DNA from: Desulfobacteraceae bacterium
Lineage (GTDB): Bacteria > Desulfobacterota > Syntrophobacteria > Syntrophobacterales > Syntrophobacteraceae
Direction: 5' to 3'
Assembly (NCBI GenBank): GCA_021372055.1
Contig: JAJFVB010000001.1
Location: forward strand, 1-64,000
DNA: 64,000 nt
Shown here: piece after piece, positions 24,325 to 26,946 of the stretch
Numbering within the stretch: position 1 is the first letter of the stretch
How the letters are laid out: each line of letters starts with the position of its first letter
Notes under the pieces: generated by a model
Seen by the model: the letters and a program-made list of their open reading frames with translations, nothing else
Database searches by the model: none
Told to the model about the DNA's origin: nothing
Translations under genes and position numbers: made by a program

Positions 24325-24597
24325 TCACTTACCGGGCGCACGCTTACTTTCGATAACCTCAGGCACGTGTTTTTCCGGGTCGAAGGTCTCTTTTTCCTTG
24401 CTCTTCAGCCCCTCGTGGCCGGTATCGAAATCGAGAAATCCCTGGCTCTCACCCGTATCGCCAAATCCAAGCGCGACTTTCTCCTCTTCCCCGGATCGGG
24501 ACTCGGCGTTCGGCCTCAGCATCACGCCATAGATAATCAAACCGAACCCGGCCACGGAGATCAGCCCGAATATCAGGTTAAATAATAAGCGTGTCAT
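24325..24597 (-). CDS. Small membrane-anchored hypothetical protein
   Basis: A 90-residue protein with one N-terminal membrane helix (LLFNLIFGLISVAGFGLIIYG) and a hydrophilic, Glu/Lys-rich tail. I do not recognise a domain. I start at ATG 24597, which overlaps the stop of the upstream gene as ATGA, so the two are translationally coupled and probably work together. A further upstream ATG at 24624 lies inside that gene and is less likely. It could be a small partner of the Pro/Gln-rich anchored protein encoded before it. Confidence 0.65.
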   Translation of the reverse strand: MTRLLFNLIFGLISVAGFGLIIYGVMLRPNAESRSGEEEKVALGFGDTGESQGFLDFDTGHEGLKSKEKETFDPEKHVPEVIESKRAPGK

Positions 24598-25496
24598 TGA
24601 TAACTCCTCGGCTTGATATTCCACCTGTTTTCAGAATAAATCCTGATTTCGATTTCGTATCCGCCCCGCCCCCCGTAGGACGCGTCGGAATACGACACGT
24701 GCGTCGATCGCGTACCGAGCTTCAGGACGGCCCCGTCACGCGAACTGAGCCTCCGGGTAAGGCTGGTCCCGAAATCCCTTGCGGAGCTCAAGACAACCTC
24801 ATCCTTGTCCAGAACCGGAGTGAGAACAGCCTGCGGCGTGACGTAGCGCCTGTTCGGACCTACTCTCTCGGTAAGATCCGGAAGTCCGAAAGTCAAATAC
24901 ACCTGACGGTCCGCGCCACGTTCCCGCCGAACTTTGACAACAACCCTGTCGCCAAAATGCACCCTCGCCAGACGAATCTCATCGCGCTGCCGTTCCGGAT
25001 CGACCCTGAGCTTTATAACCAGGGGCCCGCCTCGCTCGGTTTCGCTCCGGTGGCGCCGCTCTTTTGTAACCCGGGGCGCGGCTTTTTGAGCCTGCCGGTT
25101 CGGGGCCGGACCTGGCGGAGGCTCGATAGCATTTTTACGCTCCGTGGTTCCCTTCTCAAACGGGGCAACCTGAGGCTTGGGGTAACTGCGATTTCCCGTG
25201 CCCACGTTCGGCAGCGGCACCGGGCCCTGATCTTTTTGCTGCGGAGCGGCGGCCGACGGCGGCTGTTGAGACTGTTCCCCCGGGGTCTGCGCCGAATCGG
25301 GGCCCGGCTGTGGTTGCTGAGGTTCAACCTGCTGCCCTGATTGCTGCGTCGCCTCCGGGGTGGGCAGAGGTAGCTGAAGGACATTTTTCGACGGTTCGGC
25401 CTGGAAAAGTGCGCCCGTCTGCACCAGGCCCAATCCTGCCAGACCGACGATCACCATCGCCGTTCCAACCCCTATGAATATGCCGCGCTTTTTCAC
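24594..25496 (-). CDS. Membrane-anchored protein with Pro/Gln-rich linker, function unknown
   Basis: A 300-residue protein. GTG 25496 is chosen because AGGAGG (25504-25509) sits seven bases before it; longer reading into upstream sequence has no such site. After KKRG comes one hydrophobic helix (IFIGVGTAMVIVGLAGLGLV), then about 100 residues very rich in Pro, Gln and Ala, a basic stretch and a C-terminal ~130-residue domain with alternating hydrophobic strands (VYLTFGLPDLTERVG, EVVLSSARDFG). This looks like a TonB- or FtsN-style periplasm-spanning layout, but no known domain is recognised. It is coupled to the small membrane protein downstream. Confidence 0.65.
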   Translation of the reverse strand: MKKRGIFIGVGTAMVIVGLAGLGLVQTGALFQAEPSKNVLQLPLPTPEATQQSGQQVEPQQPQPGPDSAQTPGEQSQQPPSAAAPQQKDQGPVPLPNVGTGNRSYPKPQVAPFEKGTTERKNAIEPPPGPAPNRQAQKAAPRVTKERRHRSETERGGPLVIKLRVDPERQRDEIRLARVHFGDRVVVKVRRERGADRQVYLTFGLPDLTERVGPNRRYVTPQAVLTPVLDKDEVVLSSARDFGTSLTRRLSSRDGAVLKLGTRSTHVSYSDASYGGRGGYEIEIRIYSENRWNIKPRSYQ

Positions 25497-25923
25497 AAGT
25501 GCGCCTCCTGTAATGCAAGCGGATCGGGGAAATGCGATCCCCTGAATTCGCCCGCCCATGCCGTATGGATACGGTCCCCGGGTGATTTGAGCCTCAACCG
25601 GTCGGACCGCGAATATCCCGTCGCTTTGACCTTTCATTCGTTCAAGACGACAAGGAACGATTTTTAGTCGACACAATTTCCATTAAGATTGATCGGAGCC
25701 ATTTGTAAATGCATTTAACAGAAATCTCACCGGCCGAAGAGCACATCCCCCCCGGCCTTGTCTCGCAAGCCCCTTCAAACCTTCAATCCGGCTCTCTCCC
25801 GCCGGCGCGGCAGAGAAACCCTTCACTTGAATTGCCCATTGCCGACCTTATCATTTGCTGGGTGGACCCTTACGGAAGTGATTGATTTGCAAAAAGAACA
25901 AAATTCCAAAAAGGAGGATCGTC
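25497..25923. other. Divergent intergenic region (427 bases)
   Basis: This region separates the minus-strand anchored protein from the selenoprotein gene. It holds the ribosome site of each and a promoter candidate for the selenoprotein. The middle part (25560-25800) shows no recognisable gene or RNA. Some coding-like composition persists just upstream of GTG 25496 on the minus strand but without a ribosome site. Confidence 0.5.
25827..25854 (+). promoter_or_regulatory. Promoter candidate for the selenoprotein gene
   Basis: TTGAAT (25827-25832), 16 bases, TATCAT (25849-25854), about 70 bases upstream of ATG 25924. Both boxes match consensus at four or more positions. The gene also has an excellent ribosome site, AGGAGG at 25912-25917, six bases before the ATG. 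Confidence 0.45.
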
Positions 25924-26499
25924 ATGGCTGGAAACATCAACTGGGTGCTCGACTACAACGAGGCCCTTTCACGCGCCAAAGCCGAAGACAAATTCGTCTT
26001 CCTCGATTTTTTCAATCCCCAGTGAATCGGCTGTCAGACAATGGATGCGGTTACGTATCCCAACCTCAAGGTAGCAGATTTCCTGAATGAAAAGGTCGTT
26101 GCGCTTCAACTCTCATCATTTGCCGAACCCTATGCGCGAGACTACCTGGTAAAGTGGACCCCCTGCCTGCTCATGCTCGACGCCGAGGGCAAAGAGCACC
26201 ACAGGACGGTCGGTTTTCTGCCCCCGCTGGAGTTTCTCCCCTCCCTGAAGCTGGGAATCGGGAAAGCTTACTTCGATAAGAACCGGTACAACGAGGCGAT
26301 CGCAGTCTTCGATTCGATCCTTTCCGATTACGTTTCCAGCGCTTCCGCCCCGGAGGCGGCATTCTTCCGCGGAGTCGCCCGGTACAAGAGCACGCACGAG
26401 GCAATCCATCTCAAGAAGATGTTCCAGTTTCTGCAGGAAAGATACAGAAACAGCGAATGGGCCGCGAGGGCCTATCCCTATTGGCTCCTGCCCATCTGA
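25924..26499 (+). CDS. Thioredoxin-fold/TPR selenoprotein with in-frame TGA (Sec34)
   Basis: Read through TGA at 26023-26025, this is a 191-residue protein. Residues 1-100 form a thioredoxin-like domain: LDFFNPQ-U-IGC-QTMDA places the TGA at the first position of a UxxC redox pair (Sec34, Cys37), and WTPCLLML supplies the cis-proline (Pro80). Residues ~100-191 look like TPR-type helices (KAYFDKNRYNEAIAVFDSIL). The start ATG has a perfect AGGAGG six bases upstream; the alternative start at 26041 has no ribosome site. Right after the TGA, 26043-26048 pairs with 26055-26060 (GGATGC/GTATCC) around a GGTTAC loop, matching the bacterial SECIS pattern. A nonsense-mutated pseudogene is the alternative but explains less. 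Confidence 0.85.
26043..26060 (+). promoter_or_regulatory. Bacterial SECIS-like hairpin
   Basis: Six-pair stem GGATGC (26043-26048) with GTATCC (26055-26060), one pair being G-U, and a six-base apical loop GGTTAC. The loop starts 24 bases after the TGA and its first two bases are G. Both features fit the known rules for bacterial SECIS elements, which bind SelB just downstream of the Sec codon. Confidence 0.65.
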
Positions 26500-26516: not shown

Positions 26517-26551
26517 GCCGTGCCGCCGCCGGTTGCCGGCGGCGGCACGGC
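26517..26551 (+). terminator. Perfect 16 bp hairpin after the selenoprotein gene
   Basis: Bases 26517-26532 pair with 26536-26551 without a mismatch around a three-base TTG loop; the stem is almost all G and C. It begins 18 bases after the stop codon and is followed by a moderately T-rich stretch. A strong transcription end is likely. Confidence 0.75.
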
Positions 26552-26712: not shown

Positions 26713-26946
26713 ATGGTTTCTTATGAGTACAGGGTTTCGGTGCACCCGGCTGATTCCTTTCGGGATATGGTCTACTTCTGCTCAAACGAGGGCAGTTGCA
26801 CCGCGGAACTCATTCCATCCGATCAGGTCAGGCGCATGGAGGTGCTTCTGAACGAAGGCGGCCAAAGGGGCTGGGAACTCGTTCAGGCTTCATTCGGCAA
26901 GGACGGCGTTCTCGTGTTCTGGAAAAGGCAGGTGAGTCCGGCCTGA
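26713..26946 (+). CDS. Small DUF4177-like protein
   Basis: A 77-residue protein whose C-terminal half (RMEVLLNEGGQRGWELVQ ... VLVFWKR) matches the layout of the DUF4177 family, small alpha/beta proteins of unknown function. I start at ATG 26713, six bases after AGGAG; longer reading to 26533 runs through the preceding terminator and is rejected. A TATAAT at 26596-26601 may be the -10 box of its promoter, though no well-placed -35 box is seen. It ends 23 bases from the convergent ABC permease gene. Two cysteines (Cys at FCSNEGSC) are an extra feature. Confidence 0.7.
   Translation: MVSYEYRVSVHPADSFRDMVYFCSNEGSCTAELIPSDQVRRMEVLLNEGGQRGWELVQASFGKDGVLVFWKRQVSPA

Follow-up and report, generated by a model that had tools for sequence, protein, structure and literature searches.

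CnoX (YbbN), of which structures from E. coli (3qou) and Salmonella (3qdn) are available, consists of an N-terminal thioredoxin fold (PF00085) and a C-terminal TPR region of the TPR_20 family (PF14561); it is about 285 amino acids long and a Cys/Ser protein. CnoX acts as a holdase and passes its clients on to GroEL/DnaK. In Caulobacter, CnoX is redox-active and governs the redox state of numerous proteins (PMC6282202). A second set of thioredoxin-fold proteins, comprising the gamma domain of DsbD, DsbH, and the Thioredoxin_2 and Thioredoxin_7 proteins, carries a CxxC motif and no TPR tail, and DsbD is periplasmic. Among catalogued selenoproteins, a 'thiol:disulfide interchange protein' (WP_011366075.1) has a PF13098 domain and a UxxC motif and occurs in deltaproteobacteria (PMC1794560, PMC13188914), with Syntrophus and Geobacter among the genera listed (PMC1794560); its entry notes no TPR. 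TsoB (NF045694), VPGUxxT type 2 (NF041383) and Trx7/PDZ (NF041199) contain a related thioredoxin domain, in combination with other domains and other Sec motifs.

Here, we describe a predicted selenoprotein gene that shares features with each of these systems. It lies in a 64,000-nucleotide stretch of DNA, which we refer to as the window, and has the following features.

25912..25917, + strand: Shine-Dalgarno sequence AGGAGG, 6 nt before the ATG at 25924, read directly from the sequence
25924..26499, + strand: predicted selenoprotein gene, 191 amino acids (U34), with a thioredoxin-like domain (residues ~5-108) and two TPR-like helical hairpins (~101-188)
26023..26025, + strand: UGA, predicted selenocysteine codon U34 of a UIGC active site, with TGA there in 68 distinct sequences
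26032..26034, + strand: codon (TGT) of the resolving Cys37 of UxxC; Sec forms with the UxGC motif have TGC or TGT here
26043..26060, + strand: bSECIS-like hairpin GGATGC-GGTTAC-GTATCC, supported by conservation, compensatory changes and synonymous constraint; stem 26043-26048 (GGATGC) with 26055-26060 (GTATCC), loop 26049-26054 (GGTTAC)
26517..26551, no strand assigned: perfect 16-bp G+C-rich inverted repeat with a TTG loop, starting 18 nt past the stop, read directly from the sequence

Fold and relation to described families

The N-terminal domain scored above the Pfam gathering thresholds for the DsbH-type, Thioredoxin_2 and Thioredoxin_7 families (PF03190, PF13098 and PF13899), while TPR matches at residues 107-182 remained below threshold. 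The AlphaFold2 model (mean pLDDT 97.5, pTM 0.92) places a thioredoxin domain before helices at 101-118, 122-135, 141-157 and 161-173. As modelled, the fold would thus be a DsbD-gamma-like thioredoxin domain followed by two TPR-like hairpins. A preliminary description of this DNA had proposed a thioredoxin domain with a C-terminal TPR half, and Pfam, AlphaFold2 and the fold search agree on that layout.

In a whole-chain Foldseek search, CnoX was the top PDB match, with the Salmonella protein first and the E. coli protein fourth; the other matches were DsbD-gamma, DsbH and thioredoxins. The TM score to CnoX is low (0.42, rmsd 11), a consequence of the different arrangement of the domains. In addition, the thioredoxin domain is nearer to DsbD-gamma and Thioredoxin_7 than to the PF00085 domain of CnoX, and CnoX is a Cys/Ser protein whereas selenocysteine is predicted here. 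We rejected membership in CnoX on length and TPR type: the product is 191 rather than about 285 amino acids long, and its two TPR-like hairpins give no PF14561 match at E<=1. The DsbD-gamma, DsbH, Thioredoxin_2 and Thioredoxin_7 proteins belong to the same thioredoxin subfamily as the present domain (sequence or structure matches 2kuc, 1uc7 and 2fwg), but the protein described here combines a predicted UxxC with a TPR part.

Trp7, Phe29, Thr79-Pro80, Gly97, Leu163 and Trp179 are invariant across 76 sequences, and the Sec forms keep Asp28, UxxC and Thr79-Pro80. The first alignment, of 18 members, likewise showed an invariant Asp six positions ahead of the nucleophile. Inspection of the N-terminus by eye revealed no signal peptide, and the protein appears to be cytosolic.

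The preliminary description had called the selenoprotein undescribed. No NCBIfam 20.0 model scored above its cut-off, the selenoprotein families (TsoB, VPGUxxT, Trx7/PDZ, SaoT, HUIPC and others) included, with TsoB, VPGUxxT type 2 and Trx7/PDZ reaching about 35 of 805, 30 of 275 and 25 of 300 bits, respectively. The 2026 catalogue of 119 families has no thioredoxin+TPR entry (PMC13188914), our literature searches found no thioredoxin/TPR selenoprotein, and neither thioredoxin nor TPR is mentioned in the main text of deep-Sep (PMC12013277) or of a 2016 survey (PMC5029168). A 2026 review mentions unvalidated selenoprotein candidates from groundwater MAGs. On the other side, the loosely defined PF13098 UxxC family may overlap with the present one, as the product scores 33.4 bits against the PF13098 cut-off of 27 and has the motif UIGC. 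These results support the view that the thioredoxin-TPR selenoprotein family is uncatalogued; overlap with the PF13098 UxxC entry is possible.

Proposed activity and role of the TPR half

The fold and the conserved residues point to a DsbD-gamma/thioredoxin-like reductase as the N-terminal domain, in which Asp28 would be buried, Sec34 the nucleophile, Cys37 the resolving residue and Pro80 the cis-proline. The target of Sec34 would be a disulfide, or an oxidised thiol of another kind, in a client protein; Cys37 would resolve the mixed selenenylsulfide, and the oxidised UxxC pair would then be re-reduced by the thioredoxin-type reductant of the cell. The short C-terminal TPR-like module would bind the client or a partner protein, such that the whole might act like redox-active CnoX (a chaperedoxin) or as a docked protein-disulfide reductase. 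Of these predictions, disulfide-reductase chemistry, from fold and conserved residues, is quite probable; docking of a client or partner by the TPR half is evenly balanced; and a putative holdase activity is doubtful. Taken as one, a Sec disulfide reductase whose TPR tail docks clients, resembling CnoX without being a member, is a reading for which we see about as much reason to accept as to hesitate.

More tentatively, the protein could be a Sec chaperedoxin of anaerobes: a thioredoxin armed with Sec and equipped with its own TPR client-binding module, which would repair or hold oxidised cytosolic proteins in bacteria that lack CnoX, and which would be widespread in Desulfobacterota-type lineages. 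On this reading, the family has so far escaped annotation, as gene callers truncate it at the active site. A search of the window's genome for TPR_20, the C-terminal family of CnoX, gave no match, with positive controls from E. coli and Caulobacter; this is suggestive only, and the role of CnoX may be vacant there.

The TPR half could instead serve to dock a single dedicated partner, for instance an enzyme that handles sulfur or metals; the protein would then be a specific reductase and not a general folding or repair factor. The conservation of E144, A145, L163, L170, S177 and W179 in the C-terminal part is consistent with this, as is the weak similarity of the TPR half, some 80 residues, to the TPRs of CpoB/YbgF and BamD. 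A conserved neighbour might then be expected, but clustering of the neighbourhoods of 65 loci revealed no conserved partner gene, and we regard a single dedicated partner as possible, on the unlikely side. At the locus itself, the flanking ORFs at 26713-26946 (77 aa, downstream, + strand) and 24594-25676 (at most 360 aa, upstream, - strand) gave no Pfam match, and an Rfam scan of the window had no hits. The inverted repeat at 26517..26551 is absent from the list of a simple terminator scan; it is probably the transcription terminator of a single-gene unit. Since the flanking genes are unrelated and this repeat follows on the 3' side, the selenoprotein gene is probably transcribed alone.

We also considered whether the main activity of the protein is that of a thiol peroxidase or a peroxide reductase, with a TPR half that serves only in oligomerisation. 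Sec is common in peroxidases, and the N-P-x-U context of the present protein is unlike the WCGPC of reducing thioredoxins. However, UxxC with its resolving Cys, the Asp that precedes the nucleophile by six residues and the TP cis-proline together make up the disulfide-reductase set, and the closest proteins, in sequence as in fold, are DsbD-gamma, DsbH and thioredoxin rather than peroxiredoxin. We therefore consider a peroxidase unlikely.

Decoding of the internal UGA

The frame runs from the ATG at 25924 through the in-frame TGA at 26023-26025 to a terminal TGA at 26497-26499. With the internal TGA read as U, the product has 191 residues, starting MAGNINWVLDYNEALSRAKAEDKFVFLDFFNPQUIGCQTMDAVTYP. 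As the preliminary description had stated, the TGA occupies the first position of a thioredoxin-type UxxC, which both the sequence itself and the homologue alignment confirm, and the frame stays open beyond it for 157 sense codons and a stop. Also in line with that description, AGGAGG precedes the ATG at 25924, while the 5' sequence of the ATG at 26041, GTCAGACA, contains no Shine-Dalgarno sequence. Conventional ORF calling was expected to return a 152-residue protein from 26041 without the active site; this is indeed the sole product in this frame in the table-11 ORF list, and it starts past the active site.

A SECIS-like hairpin had been proposed after the TGA. We found one that starts 17 nt past the UGA and is conserved, with compensatory changes, in TGA forms, whose consensus is a 6-bp stem (GGAUGC/GUAUCC) and a 6-nt loop (GGUNAC). 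A G (GU) in the apical loop is a mark of bacterial SECIS elements; here, G occupies the second loop position in 68/68 sequences and U the next one in 60/68. Stem cells are paired in 93%, compared with 22-66% when one arm is slid. Double-change cells number 19, compared with a mean of 4.2 and a maximum of 10 over 2000 shuffles that ignore relatedness; 8 of the 2000 shuffles attained the observed number of pairs with a double change and 67 attained that of pair types, again with relatedness ignored. Codon 42 and the codon of Tyr46 covary (GAT+TAT in 37, GGT+TAC in 10). The Thr at U+10, whose third base lies in the 3' arm, is encoded by ACG in 49/51 cases versus 131/554 for the other Thr codons of the same genes (Fisher p 6.5e-26, relatedness ignored); in contrast, the Pro codon that follows it is free. 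Neither Cys forms nor decayed forms fold this hairpin. Where codon 42 is GAC, the hairpin is a variant that contains a mismatch or a bulge, and the standard stem is missing from the three divergent sequences L128, L134 and L135. Single-sequence folding of the 53-nt region of the window was not better than chance (z = -0.62), so the case for a SECIS rested on covariation and codon usage; no useful consensus came from RNAalifold over the full 66-nt slice. By conservation and covariation over the 68 TGA sequences, the predicted hairpin is far above chance.

The genome of the window (4.66 Mb in 318 contigs, 93.8% complete) contains the complete set of selA, selB, selC and selD. SelA scores 632 bits and SelB 363 bits, a tRNA-Sec with a TCA anticodon scores 74 bits with Rfam and is also called by ARAGORN, and two SelD genes lie above cut-off. 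Each SelD gene itself has one in-frame TGA, such that the loci G000:C261:3072-3992 (L052) and G000:C133:9550-10473 (L053) encode two predicted Sec-containing selenophosphate synthetases. SelB was above cut-off in 61/63 of the tested genomes with Sec forms, the two negative ones being drafts (92% and 67% complete), and in 5/9 genomes with Cys or decayed forms.

These sequence data lead us to predict, with near certainty, that the UGA at 26023-26025 is decoded as selenocysteine. It would be read by means of the bacterial-type SECIS hairpin just downstream, and insertion would use the genome's own SelA, SelB, tRNA-Sec and SelD. That the TGA is an ordinary stop, leaving a 33-residue remnant and a separate 152-aa protein from the ATG at 26041, or marks a pseudogene or sequencing error, is exactly what standard ORF calling would return and fits the unexceptional single-sequence folding, but is wholly improbable given 68 distinct sequences that share the TGA with residues conserved on both sides, the Sec machinery in the genome, a shorter product with an incomplete fold and no catalytic residue, and a start codon without a Shine-Dalgarno sequence. 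Pseudogene, frameshift and sequencing error were rejected, the last in view of the recurrence of this TGA among the 68 distinct sequences, which come from many assemblies. The preliminary description had named three findings that would refute its reading, namely absence of selABCD, homologues without Cys at this position and a sequencing error; we checked each, and none of them applies. Reassignment of TGA in the genetic code was likewise rejected because the gene itself terminates in TGA and the genome has a tRNA-Sec.

Distribution, loss of selenocysteine and significance

A search with the read-through protein in 98 genomes (the window's own and relatives) identified 14 full-length genes with an internal TGA, the window's own included (identity 39-99%), and one full-length gene without a stop. 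When 395 genomes of the phylum were searched with a profile, full-length TGA forms were seen in at least 32 family-level groups; a Nitrospirota MAG also has the gene (L020). In the 68 distinct sequences obtained by codon extraction, TGA stands at exactly the same codon. Among homologues, TGA is far commoner at this position than Cys, which the alignment places there in three (L035, L117 and L118, with TGC and an intact CxGC). Within the window's genus, the gene is present in 2/10 other sampled genomes and SelB in 9/10, and 7 of the 8 genomes that lack the gene still have SelB. Such patchy presence suggests that the thioredoxin-TPR gene is dispensable, with a history of loss or transfer.

Several related genes were observed in these searches. 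Shorter Sec paralogues with the motif GUGAC and a truncated TPR part occur on G356:C2 (L139/L150) and G426:C102 (L151); genome G356 has three copies of the thioredoxin-TPR family. Two single-domain thioredoxin-like selenoprotein candidates with the motif GUPHC, L144 (G378:C28) and L145 (G395:C16), may represent another uncatalogued family, and their genomes carry the thioredoxin-TPR selenoprotein as well. L146 (G191:C48), an exported-looking thioredoxin-like protein with an in-frame TGA and the motif DWUTYC, is possibly the catalogued PF13098 thiol:disulfide interchange selenoprotein.

On the tree, the non-Sec forms require three changes. L117 is nested in a Sec clade (fork 100/99) and has TGC and no hairpin, and its genome, G333, has no SelB above cut-off; given this position and the SelB result, the best reading of L117 is a reversal from Sec to Cys that was accompanied by hairpin loss. 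In family f63, all sequences except L118 either carry a second-position Ser or lack Cys altogether; Asp28 and Cys37 are lost, and in some Cys34 too, which suggests joint decay of the redox-site residues. The f63 sequences (L118-L123 and L136-L138) retain the TPR half, with two copies in some genomes, and are apparently redox-dead descendants of the thioredoxin-TPR family, as far as their sequences indicate.

As a whole, the explanation proposed here, which joins Sec decoding, a reductase and TPR docking, is one in which we place considerable confidence. The family provides a natural series for the evolution of selenocysteine: Sec with a SECIS; Sec-to-Cys with loss of the SECIS, in one case where SelB is missing; and a decayed active site with a persisting TPR half. 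Because standard annotation would truncate the protein at its active site, the predicted reductase would be missed in many anaerobes. The thioredoxin+TPR layout would be an addition to selenoprotein catalogues, and the family is broad, with full-length TGA forms from no fewer than 32 family-level groups within a single phylum.
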